Below the pieces are notes generated by a model. It saw only the letters and a list, made by a program, of their open reading frames with translations. It did no database searches and was not told where the DNA came from. The position numbers and the translations under genes were made by a program. Positions 13,928 to 22,142 of a stretch of 25,731 bases of DNA are shown in pieces (the first letter of the stretch is position 1; every line of letters starts with the position of its first letter). Source of the DNA: a virus. The stretch spans positions 1-25,731 of the IMG/VR virus record IMGVR_UViG_3300008459_000338; one strand, 5' to 3'.

Positions 13928-14776
13928 TTAGAACGGTAAATCACCGTCTACATCGTCTTCTTCTTGTGGATCAACCGTTGGAGTGGTTGATTTTGGTGCT
14001 CCGATTGTTTCTTCTGAAGTTGTTGTGTTACTTGAAACAAATTTGTTTTGGTTACTATCCCAACGTGGAACTTCACCTTTTGCAACCATGTCTAAGTAAT
14101 CTTCGCCCTTCTTAGAATAAACATCAGCCCATGTTAACGTATCTTCTAACCATGCTTTAGCAATGTTTTCATCGGTATGTAATGGACTTGCGTCATCATT
14201 TAATACTGAATTGATTACAGTGTATTCTTTACCTGTGCCTGATTTAGTTAGAGATAATGTTAAAATTAAATCTCTACCTTTAGTTGAATCGGTAATATCT
14301 CCTTTATTACGGAAGATTGGGAAGATTTTGTCGATAACGCCATCTCCTTTTGCATTGTGTTTAAATCTCCAAAATTTAACACCATCGCTTTCGTGATCTC
14401 TATCAATCACTTTAACGATGTAGAATTTACGAGAACGGTATGTTCTTGCTAATTCTCTATCCGATTCAACACCTGTAGCTTCAAGTGCTTCTTTCACCTC
14501 GTTTAATGGTGAACGTTTTCCTTCTTGTTTTGGGTCGTATAATTTAACCCATTTTCCATCTACTTGAACTTCGTGGAAATAAACCTCAGTAAATGGTGAA
14601 GCACCATCTTTTGTAGGTAAAATACGGATACGTCTTTCTTCGCCCTTAGAACCTTTAGGTAATACGGTTGTGAAATAACGTTTTAATCTGTCTTCAGAAG
14701 ACATCTTGTTGCTGTTGCCACTTGTGGCATTTTTGTTTTTTTCGTACTGAGCAAGTACTGCGTCAAATGTACTCAT
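13928..14776 (-). CDS. Single-stranded DNA-binding protein, gp32-like
   Basis: A 282-residue protein aligned by eye with T4 gp32 (301). The N-terminal part has a basic helical lead (to about 33), then the core begins with RRIRILPTKD (48-57) and FHEVQVDGKWVKLYD (67-81), matching the IRFLPSK and NHGFKKNGKWYIE region of T4 gp32. T4 binds zinc through one His and three Cys here; this protein keeps the His (His68) but has no cysteine anywhere, so the zinc site is lost. The C-terminus is a Ser/Thr/Pro linker ending in an acidic tip (EEDDVDGDLPF). It coats ssDNA during replication and recombination and is the first gene after a strong terminator, ahead of uvsX. The leader TTAAATTATG fits a Bacteroidota-style start. 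Confidence 0.85.
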   Translation of the reverse strand: MSTFDAVLAQYEKNKNATSGNSNKMSSEDRLKRYFTTVLPKGSKGEERRIRILPTKDGASPFTEVYFHEVQVDGKWVKLYDPKQEGKRSPLNEVKEALEATGVESDRELARTYRSRKFYIVKVIDRDHESDGVKFWRFKHNAKGDGVIDKIFPIFRNKGDITDSTKGRDLILTLSLTKSGTGKEYTVINSVLNDDASPLHTDENIAKAWLEDTLTWADVYSKKGEDYLDMVAKGEVPRWDSNQNKFVSSNTTTSEETIGAPKSTTPTVDPQEEDDVDGDLPF

Positions 14777-14874: not shown

Positions 14875-15102
14875 TTACCACGTAATCAAGTATCTTGGAT
14901 ATGTTCCCATATCATGGAATTTTTTTGTAACACCATATCCTGCACTTTGAATTGAGCCTGTTACGGTATCGTCAATATAATTACCTTCAATCATTACTGA
15001 AAATAATCCATTACTTGCTGCACTACCTATTGTTGATTCAACATATGTTAATCCTGTAAATGCGTTGATTGCTGTTGTGCGTCTTGTTGATGCGTTTGTC
15101 AT
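14875..15102 (-). CDS. Small unknown protein, 75 aa
   Basis: A short, apparently beta-rich protein with no cysteine, no signal peptide and no membrane helix. It starts with a Thr/Arg-rich segment (MTNASTRRTTAINAF) and continues with SVMIEGNYIDD, then a SAGYGVTK turn and an aromatic end (TYPRYLITW). The alternation suggests a small sandwich; I have a loose impression of similar small modules in other marine phage proteins but cannot name a family. It is the last gene of the right structural block, 23 bases after the ferritin-like gene, and an intrinsic terminator follows. The leader has AGAAGG directly before the ATG, the only Shine-Dalgarno-like string seen here, though probably too close to work normally. 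The coding call rests on position and composition. Confidence 0.7.
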   Translation of the reverse strand: MTNASTRRTTAINAFTGLTYVESTIGSAASNGLFSVMIEGNYIDDTVTGSIQSAGYGVTKKFHDMGTYPRYLITW

Positions 15103-15125: not shown

Positions 15126-15497
15126 TTATTCTAATGTAATTAAGTATTTCAATTTATTAAATAATCCTAACATTTCGTCTCTTATATTTAATAAATTTGT
15201 ATCTGTTTCTTCAAATTGTTGGTTGTATTGGTTTAATGCCTCACAAACCTTACTTATCATGTCAGAAACATTTAGTTCTGATAAGTTAAATAATTGAATT
15301 TGATTGGTGTTTTCATCTAATTTAAATCTTCCGTATTTACCCATTGCTTCCTCAACAAAAGTATCAATTAAATCGTCTAATGCATCATACGTTGTACCAA
15401 GTGCAGTATGTCTAGCATAGCCTTTGGTTTGCCAATGCATTACTTTAAGTTGTGATTGTAAGCCTAAAAAGAAATTTATATTAGAAGCTATATTCAT
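15126..15497 (-). CDS. Small helical protein with Dps/ferritin-like metal motif
   Basis: A 123-residue, mostly helical protein. Residues 18-50 resemble the ferroxidase region of Dps: MHWQTKG (His21), His30, then DLIDTFVEEA with Asp45 and Glu49. In E. coli Dps the matching string is DHLDTMAERA with Asp78 and Glu82, after HWNMRG (His51) and His63; the match needs a 3-residue gap. Two further amphipathic helices (about 75-97 and 99-122) would complete a four-helix bundle. It is shorter than Dps (about 167). I think it may belong to a phage family of unknown function (DUF5856-like), but this is memory, not a search. Its start overlaps the upstream gene by 17 bases. A metal-binding or structural role is inferred; an evolved, non-catalytic bundle is also possible. 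Confidence 0.75.
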   Translation of the reverse strand: MNIASNINFFLGLQSQLKVMHWQTKGYARHTALGTTYDALDDLIDTFVEEAMGKYGRFKLDENTNQIQLFNLSELNVSDMISKVCEALNQYNQQFEETDTNLLNIRDEMLGLFNKLKYLITLE

Positions 15498-16113
15498 CTT
15501 TTTCTTCTTCTGGATTAAACGATTGATTTATTTCTGGTGTGTAATTTGTAATATCATCTTTTGTTAAAACATATTCGTTTTTACCGCTTTGTTGCATTTC
15601 ACCTTGTTTGTGAGCAAAAAACTCTTGTGGTTTCTCGTTGAATGGGTATGAATCTAATGAACGCATCTCTAATTTTTCAACTGGAGTACTTGGTTTCATT
15701 TCTTCAACTTTACTACCTAACATATCAATTTTAGCCATAACCTGATCCATTTGAGCAAGTTTTTGTTCCAAATCTCCTAATTTAGTAAATACGTCATCCA
15801 TTTTTGAGATTACCTCGGTGTTATCCGATTGTTTTTCATCAAAATCTCTTTTAACGCTTTTAACCATATCAACTAAATCTGTAATGTCAATTTCCTCAGT
15901 TGTATCGGTTTCAGGCGCAGGTGCTGCTCCCATGTCAGGTGCAGGCGCAGCCATATCAGGTGCGGGTGCTGCCATTGGGTCTGCCATTGGGTCTGCAGGA
16001 GGTGCTGCTGCGGCATCGGCTTCCGGTGCTGCTTGTTCCATAATCATCGTTTTACCATATCTATTTATGGCTTTGTAACGATTCAATTCTTCTTGTAATT
16101 TTTTTTCTAACAT
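15481..16113 (-). CDS. Ala/Pro-rich coiled-coil protein of unknown function
   Basis: A 210-residue acidic protein in three parts: a short helical N-terminus (LQEELNRYKAINRYGK), a low-complexity Ala/Pro/Asp/Met segment (about 28-69) with repeats of ADPM and APAPDM, and a heptad-like helix (about 83-140) rich in Asp, Lys, Met and Leu. The tail (about 150-210) is polar and ends EEEKDEYSF. It has no cysteine, signal peptide or membrane helix. The low-complexity part is a local G+C peak in an AT-rich genome. The layout (tether, flexible linker, coiled coil) would suit a scaffold, linker or virion-attached protein, but I cannot assign it. It starts three bases after the 67-aa gene and overlaps the next gene by 17 bases, so the small genes are probably coupled. 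Confidence 0.8.
   Translation of the reverse strand: MLEKKLQEELNRYKAINRYGKTMIMEQAAPEADAAAAPPADPMADPMAAPAPDMAAPAPDMGAAPAPETDTTEEIDITDLVDMVKSVKRDFDEKQSDNTEVISKMDDVFTKLGDLEQKLAQMDQVMAKIDMLGSKVEEMKPSTPVEKLEMRSLDSYPFNEKPQEFFAHKQGEMQQSGKNEYVLTKDDITNYTPEINQSFNPEEEKDEYSF
15904..16032 (-). repeat. In-frame low-complexity repeats encoding Ala/Pro/Asp/Met
   Basis: The DNA encoding residues about 28-69 of the 210-aa protein is repetitive. It includes a perfect tandem 12-mer (15971-15982 and 15983-15994, encoding ADPM twice) and degenerate copies encoding APAPDM. All units are multiples of three bases, so copy-number change would alter linker length without breaking the frame. Confidence 0.8.
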
Positions 16114-16320: not shown

Positions 16321-16352
16321 ATTGCGTTTTTATATAAATATCTATAATATCA
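16321..16352 (-). promoter_or_regulatory. AT-rich leader of the 67-aa gene
   Basis: A 32-base gap between the giant gene and the 67-aa gene. The minus strand reads ATATTTATA at 16333-16341, the same string as upstream of the gp25-like gene. It may be a promoter or translation-enhancing element for the small genes; no hairpin or Shine-Dalgarno is seen. Confidence 0.22.
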
Positions 16353-19300
16353 TTAATATCCCTTATCCATAGTAAAATAAACAACTTCACCATCATGTAC
16401 TCCTAAATCACTCATTAATTTTTTTGATAGTCCTATACCGTAGCCGTCTAAACTAGGTCCTTTATGTATTGCACCTGAGATATTTGATAGATTTATTTCA
16501 GCCACAGTTTCACCAATTGGTAATACTGTGATTGATTTACCATTTGACGGGTTAGTAAATGTTGTTTTTGCTTTTACGATAAAATTAGCAGATACTCTTA
16601 AGTCAAATTTTATAGCATAAAAATAATGAGTATTGTCATTTTTAATGTCATTCCACAATATATTTTTGTGATTTACGTCACCTGTGTTTTTTGTTTTATT
16701 TGTGACTCTCGCTAAAATTCCCATTTCTATGTTTTCGTCCACTTTATATGTGGTGCCACCCATTTGACAAGCAACCGCTCTAAAATATGTCTGATCGCTA
16801 TTTTTTGATACTTGATTGTTTTTAACTTGGACGATATATTTTTCGCCGTTAAATCCTCCCCAACTTACCCCAAATTCGTTTGCACCAGATGTGTTTAATA
16901 GAATTTCACCTTTTGGTGCTACTTTTTTATCTCCCGTATCAATTAGAAACGAACCATTGTTAGTTTGTAAAATCTCTTCATTTTTATTCGCGCCGTTTGT
17001 TACTTTAGATTGTTCATTTACTCTTGCAGTTGCGGCTTTGGAAATTTTATCGAAAAGAACCCTAAAGCTCGAATAGAAAGAGTCTTTTGGATTTGGTAAG
17101 GATTGATAAGGTATTCTTGTTCCTTTAAATATAGTCGTTATATTACCCGCCCTAATATTATGTGACACATCGGTAATCCAATATGAGCCTCTAAACATTG
17201 GGATGTTTTTCAAATAAAAATACATTGTGGGTTGTATCATAACATTACCCATCATTGTTACTTCACACGTGTACGATCTCATTCTATATATATCAAATAA
17301 ACCTACATCCATTTGTGCAACCCCTGCTCCTGATTCTGATCTACCCAAATTTTCAACCGCTTGCATAGATTCTGAGGTTTCTCTTTGTGATGTCTGATCC
17401 AATTGTATTCCTTTGAACATGGATTGATTTTCATCTCCTGCACTAACTTCAAATGCAATAACTTTATTTGATTTATATAAATCACCCACATTAGCATTAT
17501 CTAAAACATTTACAACAAGTGGACTTTGTGCGCTTTGAAATAAATTACCACTATCGTTTTTAAATTTATTTTGTTGTTGTTTTATATCCGACATTTCTAA
17601 TTGCTTAGACGTTGGTCCAACATATTGTATAATAATCTTAGGTGAAGATTCTTGATAATCCACATCTAAAAATGTCCCAAAAAGATTTTGAGCTACTTTT
17701 TTAGAGGGTGTTGTTTTTGATTTTGTACTAAAGTTCGTTCCATAAAAATTAACATAGGCAGGTAATGCTCTCATATCAAAACCAGTTCCTTGTAATAACA
17801 TTGATATTACACTATACAAATTTGCTTTGTCATTTTTTGGATCGTCTAACGATAATAATTTTTCTAAACTAAGAAATGCGACATCTCCAATGTCTTTATT
17901 TGCTTTATCCAAAAATAAAAATTCTTCCATTAATGGTCTTGCGCCTAACGAATTACCCGCAACCCATTTGTCATTAAACACTTTAAAATAGTTGTATTCC
18001 TCAAGTTTTAGTGCCGCGTCAGCGTGCCCACTAAAAATGGTTAATTGATTGTTATTTGCATTTGTCTGTGGTAAATTTACCAATTGTGTCACTAATCTAT
18101 CTAAATAAGTTCCTAACCTTAATGTGGATGTGGTTAATATTGTTGTTAGGTAAGCTTGAAATTCTCTTTTGTTTGTAAACTTACCATCTTTATAACCTCC
18201 TGCAAAAATTTGTATTAAAGGTCTAAATAATAAAACATTTTCCTCACTTAATTCTACATTATTTATTGAGAAAAAGTTTAAATAATTAGCATCAATATCT
18301 TCACCAACATATAATTTAATAAATGATGCGTTACTTAATTGTGTGATTTCATCGTATGGTTCGTATTTAAATGTGTTTACACTATCAAAATTTGAAAACC
18401 CGTACCAAACATGAGGCGAAATTTCTTTAGCATTACCTAATGTTAATTTCATTAAATTATCCGTACTTAATATTTTTTTAGTTATATTTTTTAACTTATT
18501 TTTTTGTTTTGTTTTTAATATATCTAAAGGTAAAATTTGTGGATCTGTTTTTTCTTTTGGTACTGTAACAATGTCTTTTAATAAATCTTGAAATTTATCA
18601 TAACTTACAACATGTAAACCACTCGCACCAGAATATGGTTCAAACTTGTGACTTGGTATTTCATCATTAATTTTTTCACTTGCAAAATCTAAAAAACAAC
18701 TTTCAAATTCATCTAAAATTGATGGACTAAACGTTGCAATTAAATCTATTACTTTTCTATAGTCCGCACTAATACTATATTCGTTATCGTTAGTTTTTGG
18801 TAAACTACTTATAAAGCTTCTATTATATTGTGAATAATTTGGAAATGTTTTTCCACTAAACGGAGTTGTAACTAATTCATCCTGCCAAATAACTCTATAT
18901 GATGATTGTTCTTTGTGATTAAAACCTAAACTATTAACAGTTTTATTAGTTAAATTGGTGATTGAATTATCTCCGACTGAAGGTAATAAAGTATAAAACA
19001 TATCACTAGTTACCATAACTGAATTGTTAATGTAGTTTGTAAAATATGTGATGCCATCGCCAATTGGCTTTTGTATTGAATTAATTGTACCGCCCGTAAC
19101 GTTTGATTCAAACGATGGGCTACCGATTGTTACATCATAATGTGCGTAACCATTAACTACTTGGTGAAAAACAGCGTCATAAAATGGATGTATACCCACA
19201 TTTTTAGGGCTAATGTAAGAAACATAATTTCCATCTATAAGAAATATGTTTTCTGGCATTCTGGTATCGTTATTATCAAAAAATAAATTACCATCAATTG

Positions 19301-22142
19301 CCGTTGTTACGTTGTTTGTTGTAAAACCACTTAGTATATCCGTTCCGTCATTTATAAACGTTTTATATCTATGATAAATCGAACCCCATTTAAGTATTAA
19401 ATGATATGGAATATAATGAGACGCATTAACCTCTCTAAACAAAGAGGACATTCTTGCCTTATTTGGTTTTGTTAAAAAATTACCTGATGGTCCAAAATAT
19501 GTGCTTACGTTATCTTCTAAATCTAAAAATGGTAATGAATTTAATAAAAGATACGCTGAACCCACATATTTCCCATTGGAGTTTCCTTTAGTAAAATCAT
19601 TAAATAATTGTTTATGAAAATATGGTGTGTTTAATATATTAACAGATTCATTATTTTGTATTTTTAAATTTTGACTAAACAAATCATCAATATACGCATC
19701 TTTTACCCACATGTTCGATTCTATTGGTGTACTAATAAAACCTTCTTTTGTGTTAACCGAAAGGAAATTTTTAATGTTTAAATCGTCAGAATTAAATTCC
19801 TTTTTATTTAAATAATTTAAATATAAACTTGAGTTATATGGGTATATTGATTTACGATAATCTTCTGAGGTGTAGTTAATTATATTTTTATTTAAATCAA
19901 CATATGAATTATTTTTTTGTGCTTTTTGTGATTGTCCGTACTGTTCTATATGAAAGGTGTTTTCCTCGAAATTTTTTAAATAACCAGTTGTTGGTAGTTT
20001 ATCTTGATAATATGGGTATCTTTCAAATGGTGAGTATGATAAAAGATATTGAATTAATGTGTCTTTATTATTTATAGTTCTTAAAATATCGATAATATCA
20101 CTATCTTCTTTGAATATTTTTGAAATATTGTCAAACTCATTATTAGCCAACTCTTGTATTGTTTTACTATTGAACGTGTCCAACAATGTCGCATACCTAC
20201 CTCTTTCGAACATTTCATATATGATACTTGATATTGCTTTATTACCATATGGTATACTTGTTACAATATCAAAACCATTTGTTATTGTTAAAATGTCAAC
20301 GTCAGGTGTGTTATTTTCAAAAATATAATTTATGGTTCCGACGCCTCCTTCTTTTTCTGCCAAAGGATCAATTCTTTTTGTTGCTGTACCATGATAATTT
20401 TCAACAAAATCAATCTCAGGCCATAATAACACACTATTCGATTGAAGTGCTGTTTGTAAATCTGGATCACCAGGATATGCTATAACTTTTTGTTTTGAGC
20501 TTGAGTCTGTTTTTTTAATCTCAGGCCATGGATATATATTATCATCGTTTGGTGTTTCATCTGAATATCCTTTTAAAACCTTTTTCCTTTTACTACCTAC
20601 CTCATGAGCTCTACTATGGACATCTTTTAGTAACCTAATATATACGTCGGCATTAGCCATAATTACCCCAAAAATATTTCTAACTGTTGGTTCAAACCCA
20701 ATACCTTTTTGTGGATCTTTAATTACTTTATTCATCTCGTCCTCGACAAATTTTTGTAATTTATTTCTTTGTGCGACAAACGATGTTTCAATATCGGTAA
20801 TATGAGTCCTTAAGGTTTCGTATTTTACTACAAATTTAGAATCTTGAACATCAACATAATAATCAATATTTTGTATGTTATTTAAGAAATTAAAAGTTTG
20901 TTGTTTAAAGTTAACACCAGAAGCGTTTAGCTTTTGTTCTGCAAAAATTGCAGTATTACTTAATTTAGTTTTAAAATTTGTAATAATAGAATCTAATGTT
21001 TTATTATTTTTTGGATTTTTAACATTTGTTAATTCATTATTTTCAGTTTTAGCTAAAAATGTTAATCTATTACTGTTCACTAATATTGAATCATTACTTA
21101 AATGTACTTGTGCCCAACTATCAACAGCACTTAAAAATTCTTGAATTAACTTCTCAAATTCTTTAATTCCGTCAAAAATATGAAAATCAACTTTTTGATC
21201 TAAGATTTCTCTTTCTAATATTTTATCCAATGTTCTGGCAACGCTAATAAGTTCCCTTAATGTTTTTGGATTGTTTAAGAAACTTTTAGGTAGTAATCCT
21301 CTTGACACGTAATCACTATATACTGATTTCAACAATGTATAACCTTTACTAGATTTAGATACTGTTTTAGTATATTGTTGTGTATTCGGATTGTATTTTG
21401 CTTCCTTATCTTGTTCAATAGCATACATATAAGGTGCATTTAAAATACCCGTTAATGGGATGTCATTTAAAAATGCATATGTGGAGCCGACAAAAGTTGT
21501 GGATATATCAAAATTACCATTCGAACCATTATATTTTGATGTGAATTTTGTAAGATGTAATCTATATCTTATCGCCTTACCATAAAACCCTTTTACCGTT
21601 AAATAAAATATAGGCCATGGTAAATGAAAAAATGCTTTATAAGGTGAATTTTCTGGTGACTCAAAAAGTGTTTTACCTCTAACGTCCACAAAATTAATAT
21701 TAACTTGCGGAATAAAATTTGCACCCTTAACACTAATATTAACACTTTCAATACCAAATGATTGTGCTGAGGTATCTGATATATTATTAGTTAATGTAGT
21801 TTGTTTACCGTTTTTATCTGTAACAGTTTGATTTGTTTCAATAAATGAATTAGTCCAACTTGTATCTAAATCCCCACCATTAGCATTTCTTAACATATTA
21901 AGGTTACCCTCAGCAATAGATAATAAATTACCTGTTGCTTGTTGATTTCCTGAAACTGAAAGAATACTTCTTGGTATTAAATCAGCCTCTAAATTAACAT
22001 ACATTACCAATTTTTCTTGCGCAACACTTCTCATTGCAACATTACCGCCTTCAACCACACTATTAGGATCAATTAGGATAACGTTGTTCTGATCTACCTT
22101 AACAAGTATGTTTTCTGTATTTTTTAAATTATTGTTGCCCAT
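16353..22142 (-). CDS. Giant baseplate-hub-like structural protein, 1929 aa
   Basis: The largest gene in the window. The N-terminal part (about 130-230) reads as strands with FHLPWPIFYLTVKGFYGKA and later FDISTTFVGSTYAFLNDI, like the tube-like domain of baseplate hub proteins. Near residues 1615-1680, YTCEVTMMGNVMIQPTMYFY, then RGSYWITDVSHNIRAGNITT and FKGTR resemble the closing domain of hub proteins of the gp27/gpD/XkdQ type. About 1300 residues of Asn/Lys/Phe/Tyr-rich sequence separate them and are unassigned. A further C-terminal extension (about 1730-1929) ends IGLSKKLMSDLGVHDGEVVY, a pattern seen in double-psi barrels. T4 gp27 is only about 390 residues. The start overlaps the gp53-like gene by 14 bases. 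Few cysteines and no signal peptide. Hub assignment is by motif resemblance; no lysozyme motif seen. Confidence 0.75.
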   Translation of the reverse strand: MGNNNLKNTENILVKVDQNNVILIDPNSVVEGGNVAMRSVAQEKLVMYVNLEADLIPRSILSVSGNQQATGNLLSIAEGNLNMLRNANGGDLDTSWTNSFIETNQTVTDKNGKQTTLTNNISDTSAQSFGIESVNISVKGANFIPQVNINFVDVRGKTLFESPENSPYKAFFHLPWPIFYLTVKGFYGKAIRYRLHLTKFTSKYNGSNGNFDISTTFVGSTYAFLNDIPLTGILNAPYMYAIEQDKEAKYNPNTQQYTKTVSKSSKGYTLLKSVYSDYVSRGLLPKSFLNNPKTLRELISVARTLDKILEREILDQKVDFHIFDGIKEFEKLIQEFLSAVDSWAQVHLSNDSILVNSNRLTFLAKTENNELTNVKNPKNNKTLDSIITNFKTKLSNTAIFAEQKLNASGVNFKQQTFNFLNNIQNIDYYVDVQDSKFVVKYETLRTHITDIETSFVAQRNKLQKFVEDEMNKVIKDPQKGIGFEPTVRNIFGVIMANADVYIRLLKDVHSRAHEVGSKRKKVLKGYSDETPNDDNIYPWPEIKKTDSSSKQKVIAYPGDPDLQTALQSNSVLLWPEIDFVENYHGTATKRIDPLAEKEGGVGTINYIFENNTPDVDILTITNGFDIVTSIPYGNKAISSIIYEMFERGRYATLLDTFNSKTIQELANNEFDNISKIFKEDSDIIDILRTINNKDTLIQYLLSYSPFERYPYYQDKLPTTGYLKNFEENTFHIEQYGQSQKAQKNNSYVDLNKNIINYTSEDYRKSIYPYNSSLYLNYLNKKEFNSDDLNIKNFLSVNTKEGFISTPIESNMWVKDAYIDDLFSQNLKIQNNESVNILNTPYFHKQLFNDFTKGNSNGKYVGSAYLLLNSLPFLDLEDNVSTYFGPSGNFLTKPNKARMSSLFREVNASHYIPYHLILKWGSIYHRYKTFINDGTDILSGFTTNNVTTAIDGNLFFDNNDTRMPENIFLIDGNYVSYISPKNVGIHPFYDAVFHQVVNGYAHYDVTIGSPSFESNVTGGTINSIQKPIGDGITYFTNYINNSVMVTSDMFYTLLPSVGDNSITNLTNKTVNSLGFNHKEQSSYRVIWQDELVTTPFSGKTFPNYSQYNRSFISSLPKTNDNEYSISADYRKVIDLIATFSPSILDEFESCFLDFASEKINDEIPSHKFEPYSGASGLHVVSYDKFQDLLKDIVTVPKEKTDPQILPLDILKTKQKNKLKNITKKILSTDNLMKLTLGNAKEISPHVWYGFSNFDSVNTFKYEPYDEITQLSNASFIKLYVGEDIDANYLNFFSINNVELSEENVLLFRPLIQIFAGGYKDGKFTNKREFQAYLTTILTTSTLRLGTYLDRLVTQLVNLPQTNANNNQLTIFSGHADAALKLEEYNYFKVFNDKWVAGNSLGARPLMEEFLFLDKANKDIGDVAFLSLEKLLSLDDPKNDKANLYSVISMLLQGTGFDMRALPAYVNFYGTNFSTKSKTTPSKKVAQNLFGTFLDVDYQESSPKIIIQYVGPTSKQLEMSDIKQQQNKFKNDSGNLFQSAQSPLVVNVLDNANVGDLYKSNKVIAFEVSAGDENQSMFKGIQLDQTSQRETSESMQAVENLGRSESGAGVAQMDVGLFDIYRMRSYTCEVTMMGNVMIQPTMYFYLKNIPMFRGSYWITDVSHNIRAGNITTIFKGTRIPYQSLPNPKDSFYSSFRVLFDKISKAATARVNEQSKVTNGANKNEEILQTNNGSFLIDTGDKKVAPKGEILLNTSGANEFGVSWGGFNGEKYIVQVKNNQVSKNSDQTYFRAVACQMGGTTYKVDENIEMGILARVTNKTKNTGDVNHKNILWNDIKNDNTHYFYAIKFDLRVSANFIVKAKTTFTNPSNGKSITVLPIGETVAEINLSNISGAIHKGPSLDGYGIGLSKKLMSDLGVHDGEVVYFTMDKGY

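Follow-up and report, generated by a model that had tools for sequence, protein, structure and literature searches.

A small DUF5856 phage protein with a Dps-like predicted fold and a putative four-residue metal site

Crystal structures of Dps show a metal site shared at a two-fold interface, to which one subunit contributes its two His and the partner its Asp and Glu. Bona fide Dps genes are known in phages, in the Gratiaviridae and in Lactobacillus phages (PMC8008677, PMC6669764). The protein described here belongs with a different set of small phage proteins. Virion proteomics had been proposed in the first-pass annotation of this DNA as one check on the protein, and published mass spectrometry does place its relatives in purified virions. 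ORF78 of LIMEstone1 was found there (13.15 kDa, 3 peptides, 28% coverage) and is recorded as a 'confirmed structural protein' with a putative late promoter in front of it (PMC3296691). In Sajous1, gp217 was detected in virions with 10 spectra, and its Phyre2 model was a ferritin at 96.7% confidence (PMC10892097). In Klebsiella phages VMC03 and VMC04, gp108 and gp100, labelled 'starvation-inducible transcriptional regulator', gave 26 and 27 virion spectra, above the authors' cut-off (PMC13119998); from this label, shared with the family described below, and from the family's occurrence in Klebsiella T4-like phages, we infer that both are DUF5856 proteins. The spectral counts of these relatives in virions are low and contamination is possible. 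In T4, lysis inhibition lasts slightly longer when rI.-1 is overexpressed (Golec 2010, cited through a review, PMC6832632). RaK2 carries a homologue of this gene and has no RI, RI.1, RIII or T (PMC3622015).

The stretch of DNA analysed here, referred to as the window, is an IMG/VR record of 25.7 kb (25,731 nucleotides) which is AT-rich (32% GC) and carries T4-type genes for a baseplate wedge, NrdA/NrdB, a thioredoxin-like protein, DnaB helicase, an exonuclease, UvsX and a gp32 SSB. The first-pass annotation had drawn attention to residues 21-50 of a 123-aa reading frame, placing them at 15348-15437, and this position is exact. The gene and the codons of interest are as follows.

15126..15497, minus strand, DUF5856 / PHROG 858 protein of 123 aa (Pfam, PHROG, AlphaFold2)
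15435..15437, minus strand, codon for His21 in HWQTKG, equivalent to E. coli Dps His51 (invariance, Dps alignment)
15408..15410, minus strand, codon for His30, equivalent to Dps His63 (invariance, Dps alignment)
15396..15398, minus strand, codon for Gly34, at the place of Dps Asp67 (residue tallies in relatives and Dps)
15363..15365, minus strand, codon for Asp45, equivalent to Dps Asp78 (invariance, Dps alignment)
15351..15353, minus strand, codon for Glu49, equivalent to Dps Glu82 (invariance, Dps alignment)

The protein scored 71.4 bits against Pfam DUF5856 (PF19174; cut-off 34.6) and matched phrog_858, named 'starvation-inducible transcriptional regulator', with an E-value of 7.6e-19. It is therefore a member of DUF5856, a known family annotated without a function. 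Relatives were found in 253 IMG/VR stretches, of which 80 were kept for analysis, and in 1,233 phage records by tblastn; PF19174 was also matched by all 71 aligned relatives. RI.-1 of T4 (NC_000866 58819-59205) is a homologue, 30-31% identical to the window protein. Among 299 bacterial genomes sampled, only one had a DUF5856 Pfam match, so this is essentially a phage family. That single copy (G213:C1:214909-215169) lies in a 0.9-Mb bacterial genome and keeps all four of the residues discussed below.

Conservation was examined in 177 distinct full-length relatives, taken from four pattern searches and from annotated phages, with a median pairwise identity of 29%. Exactly four of the 123 positions were fully invariant in all 177 sequences, namely H21, H30, D45 and E49, although most of the sequences were fetched with peptide patterns overlapping the motif, which biases the set towards conservation. 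These are the four residues that had been named beforehand as possible metal ligands; they do not vary freely, and a random draw of exactly these four from 123 columns would occur 1 time in 9 million. They are also kept in members found by tblastn or Pfam, comprising T4, Lw1, 44RR, Klebsiella K65evo3, kage, Menlow, Coodle, LIMEstone1, Sajous1, KcrB, P19250A, DSL-LC05, ctNMl277, ctfne034 and the bacterial-genome copy. The next most conserved positions were D107 (99%) and G53, Y118, N104 and A32 (98-99%). Position 18 (15444-15446) is Lys in the window clade and His in 72% of relatives, where it forms an HxxH in helix A. This His and the near-invariant N104, D107 and Y118 of helix D may be extra metal ligands or second-shell residues that are absent from Dps.

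The spacing of the invariant residues is that of Dps. All 177 relatives and all 28 bacterial Dps sequences had the arrangement H-x14-D-x3-E, which was found in none of 15 ferritins; the longer pattern H-x8..11-H-x14-D-x3-E arose in 0.03% of shuffles of the window protein. The proposed overlay of H21, H30, D45 and E49 on H51, H63, D78 and E82 of E. coli Dps (NC_000913), with one 3-residue gap, holds. The gap lies between the two histidines, which are 9 residues apart in the window protein and 12 apart in Dps (H-x11-H, HWNMRGANFIAVH). In 37 relatives of another clade the spacing is also 12, for example HWRAKGDGSYAKH, and the gap thus reflects a loop of varying length that joins helix A to helix B.

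Comparison of profiles matched the family to Dps along all four helices and 116 columns (E 3.6e-5), the ligand columns being equated. The score was 35, and in a control of 100 column shuffles it did not rise above 20. When the four ligand columns were masked the score dropped to 15 and the match was lost, indicating that most of the sequence evidence for homology to Dps comes from the four ligands. Searching PDB sequences with the DUF5856 profile returned mostly Dps, the best being H. pylori NapA (HP-NAP, E 6e-4); the profile is needed for this, as a search of the same sequences with the window protein alone gave chance matches only. Comparison with Pfam had also been proposed, for DUF5856 and Ferritin, and it bore out the former only: a Ferritin (PF00210) search of the window gave nothing above cut-off and 3 of 71 relatives matched weakly, the best with an E-value of 0.003. 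The profile of FtnA-type ferritins did not match the family profile (probability <1%), and classical ferritin is thus ruled out as the closest relative.

The first-pass annotation had judged the helices sufficient for a bundle. AlphaFold2 without templates, applied to single chains, agreed, giving a four-helix bundle for the window protein (mean pLDDT 88, pTM 0.83) and the same fold for the T4 homologue (pLDDT 91). The predicted helices are as follows.

15429..15491, minus strand, helix A, residues 3-23, with His21 (AlphaFold2 model)
15333..15419, minus strand, helix B, residues 27-55, with His30, Gly34, Asp45 and Glu49 (AlphaFold2 model)
15219..15269, minus strand, helix C, residues 77-93 (AlphaFold2 model)
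15135..15200, minus strand, helix D, residues 100-121, with near-invariant Asn104, Asp107 and Tyr118 (AlphaFold2 model, conservation)

The Foldseek check proposed together with structure prediction pointed the same way: Dps structures made up almost all of the top 32 PDB matches to the window model, mostly with TM-scores of 0.60-0.74 and probabilities near 1, at E-values of 0.06-1. The top matches to the T4 model were again mostly Dps, and neither model had a PDB match at E 0.001. Among viral predicted structures, close matches were found in other phages and in a 'Putative DpsA' of a crAss-like phage. Two BFVD entries from giant viruses that infect eukaryotes, A0A7D3V608 (Fadolivirus) and A0A481ZC29 (Pithovirus LCPAC404), matched the window model with TM-scores of 0.81-0.85 and 29-32% identity, and these model comparisons suggest that the miniature Dps extends beyond phages. 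The BC helix, which lies at the dimer interface in Dps, is absent from the window model, where the BC region has only a 3-residue helical turn at 72-74. With helix A starting at residue 3 and helix D reaching residue 121 of 123, the protein has no basic DNA-binding tail at either terminus and its net charge is negative. Given this lack of a basic tail in an acidic protein, Dps-like DNA binding is unlikely.

Taken together, the profile and the predicted fold support well a likeness of the window's DUF5856 protein to Dps. In the model, helix A has H21 close to its end and helix B has H30 close to its start; D45 and E49 are 15 and 19 residues past H30 on the unbroken helix B. At 1.5 Å per residue this separates H30 from D45 by ∼22 Å, too far for one chain to bring the four residues together at a single metal, and a common site would need a two-fold dimer of the Dps type. 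A large distance between these residues had been named beforehand as an objection; as the Dps site is itself inter-subunit, the distance within one chain gives no refutation of a Dps-type site. The exact helix-B spacing is kept, and by analogy with Dps it predicts the same inter-subunit site in the window protein.

The first-pass annotation read the motif as a Dps- or ferritin-like ferroxidase site. The bundle, the profile and fold match to Dps and the invariance of the four residues all favour that reading; the fifth ligand does not, its place being taken by Gly34. The residue at this position in the 177 relatives was G in 101, N in 53, D in 15 and E in 1. An Asp or Glu stood at the Asp67 position in 24 of 28 Dps sequences as against 16 of the 177 sampled relatives, and the fifth carboxylate is present in T4-like members (D in T4; E in Lw1, K65evo3 and 44RR). 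From its sequence the window form, with Gly34 in place of Asp67, may hold one metal rather than two, or may bind more weakly.

The reading we prefer, by a modest degree of confidence, is that the window protein is a minimal metal protein of the Dps type, carried at low copy in the virions of at least some phages. Its dimer, metal, chemistry and purpose we infer as follows. Each subunit would be the bare core of a ferritin-like four-helix bundle, and its pairing with a second subunit would follow the two-fold symmetry of Dps. His21 and His30 from one chain and Asp45 and Glu49 from its partner would then come together and hold a metal. Fe(II) is the likeliest candidate and would be oxidised with peroxide or oxygen. 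For the phages that carry it, the protein would be a low-copy accessory, either of the virion or of late infection, and it would keep iron and peroxide off phage DNA and proteins. A bolder extension, that the whole DUF5856 family (>1,200 phages including T4) is a miniaturised Dps packaged and delivered with the genome, acting as a ferroxidase that is active with neither a cage nor a DNA-binding tail and guards phage DNA, on entry or during replication, against Fenton damage, seems doubtful to us.

The neighbours of the gene were then compared with those of its relatives. Two of them are fixed in the window's clade.

15481..16113, minus strand, ORF of 210 aa, coiled-coil-like and rich in Ala and Pro, that overlaps the DUF5856 gene at the latter's 5' end (directly upstream in 80 of 80 close relatives)
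13928..14776, minus strand, gp32-type SSB (PF08804; downstream homologue in 79 of 80 close relatives)

Upstream lie this 210-aa ORF, which has Ala/Pro/Met repeats (ADPMA, APAPDM) and a heptad-like stretch, then a 67-aa ORF and a 1929-aa ORF (16353-22142, minus strand). The last is conserved upstream in at least 65 of the 80 relatives and received no confident PHROG or Pfam assignment; it is probably a large virion protein of the window's phage group. Downstream lie the SSB, UvsX, exonuclease, DnaB helicase and ribonucleotide reductase. Between the gene and the SSB is a 75-aa ORF (14875-15102, minus strand) with no family match and a homologue in 26 of the 80. The gene had been described as sitting among tail genes. 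This is true only at a distance, with baseplate genes 6-9 kb off on either side, and does not describe its nearest neighbours. The 210-aa and 67-aa neighbours showed no homology to gp214-gp216 or gp218 of Sajous1. No T4 late-promoter consensus (TATAAATA) was found directly upstream on the coding strand near the gene, and a perfect match at 16333 is on the opposite strand. Outside the window clade the neighbours vary and include rI, endolysin, spanin-like, tail spike/fibre, portal and glycosyltransferase genes. A gene that changes its place while these residues stay fixed looks more like that of an accessory enzyme than like one for a core structural component.

This last point bears on the first alternative, that the bundle has been re-used as a minor virion or assembly component in which a metal such as Zn or Mn locks the dimer with no ferroxidase chemistry. 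The presence of relatives in purified virions, one of them encoded within a small group of virion genes and recorded as a 'confirmed structural protein', is consistent with this, as are the loss of the fifth Dps ligand from most sampled members and the want of a DNA-binding tail in the window protein. However, T4-like members retain the full five-ligand Dps set, a structural metal site would be expected to vary between His, Cys, Asp and Glu more than was seen in the 177 sequences, and neighbourhoods as varied as these are unlike those of a core structural gene. Structural re-use is a real but rather unlikely explanation.

Genes for lysis also lie close to some members, which recalls the possibility that the protein is a lysis-timing accessory, the T4 protein modulating lysis inhibition with RI, RI.1 and RIII, perhaps as a redox or metal sensor. 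In T4-like phages rI.-1 overlaps or adjoins rI, and its overexpression has the slight effect noted above, although this effect is weak and indirect. In several phages unrelated to one another such genes are beside or near the DUF5856 gene: endolysin in MW202828 and KcrB, a spanin-like lipoprotein and lysozyme in MW202655, holin and endolysin in P19250A and the antiholin rI in T4 (loci L083 4487-4957, L090 3294-3761, L088 2693-3846, L089 4084-4907 and L093 1657-1950). A general link to lysis cassettes drawn from these five phages was rejected, as most of the neighbours tallied for IMG/VR relatives were tail spike/fibre, SSB, portal or unknown genes, and endolysins made up a minority; the link thus remains a lead only. 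RaK2, with its homologue but without RI, RI.1, RIII or T, further argues against a lysis-timing function, as do the window clade, in which the gene adjoins SSB, and the many IMG/VR relatives that adjoin tail spike/fibre genes. We regard this explanation as improbable.

Two further explanations have very little chance of being correct. A 'Ferrojan horse', that is an iron-carrying tail part used in entry, has been put forward for Sajous1, which has a homologue in gp217, but the same paper found no TonB or FeoB dependence (PMC10892097), a 13-kDa cytosolic-type bundle with no receptor-binding domain is a poor candidate, and relatives have been placed in virions with a position in the tail only presumed. 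A likeness that is convergent or accidental, in which a helical bundle with a polar cluster is unrelated to Dps or metals, draws on the loss of the profile match upon masking, the commonness of four-helix bundles and the weak Foldseek E-values, but sits badly with the exact 15/4 spacing common with Dps, the members with the 12-residue His spacing of Dps, the collinear match over four helices and the top structural matches being almost all Dps.

The preferred reading, a minimal metal protein of the Dps type, was anticipated in part by the 'starvation-inducible transcriptional regulator' label and the Phyre2 'ferritin' result for Sajous1. In the open-licence literature no paper was found that ties DUF5856 or T4 RI.-1 to the Dps ferroxidase ligands. 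What the sequence and model comparisons add is a candidate miniature Dps-like protein with an invariant, putative four-ligand site. The best-studied phage, T4, has in RI.-1 a gene that still lacks an explanation, and the Dps link gives a hypothesis that can be tested there by biochemistry; it also accounts for the odd 'starvation-inducible' label of PHROG 858. If true, iron and peroxide handling would join what virions carry, and the limit to which Dps can be trimmed with its metal site kept would be shown.

The window protein can finally be set beside the known systems. With bacterial Dps, such as E. coli Dps and H. pylori NapA, it has in common the predicted four-helix bundle, the equivalents of four ligands and the identical helix-B spacing. 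It differs in being ∼45 residues shorter, in having no BC helix and no N-terminal tail (which some Dps also lack), in an A-B turn shorter by 3 residues and in the Gly that replaces the fifth ligand Asp67. Classical ferritin and bacterioferritin have only the general bundle topology in common with it, and their intrasubunit ExxH di-iron ligands are absent. The Dps proteins of the Gratiaviridae and Lactobacillus phages were recognised as ordinary Dps, whereas DUF5856 falls below the Pfam cut-off for Ferritin, and those reports do not discuss it. Sajous1 gp217 is homologous to DUF5856 and has the four residues in common with the window protein; the available part of the paper describing it does not mention the ligands, the link to DUF5856 and T4 RI.-1 or the distinction between Dps and ferritin (PMC10892097). 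The closest system is T4 RI.-1 and DUF5856 at large, of similar length and with the same helices and four invariant residues, from which the window clade is set apart by K18, by G34 where T4 has D, by a longer B-C loop and by an SSB gene beside it instead of rI.
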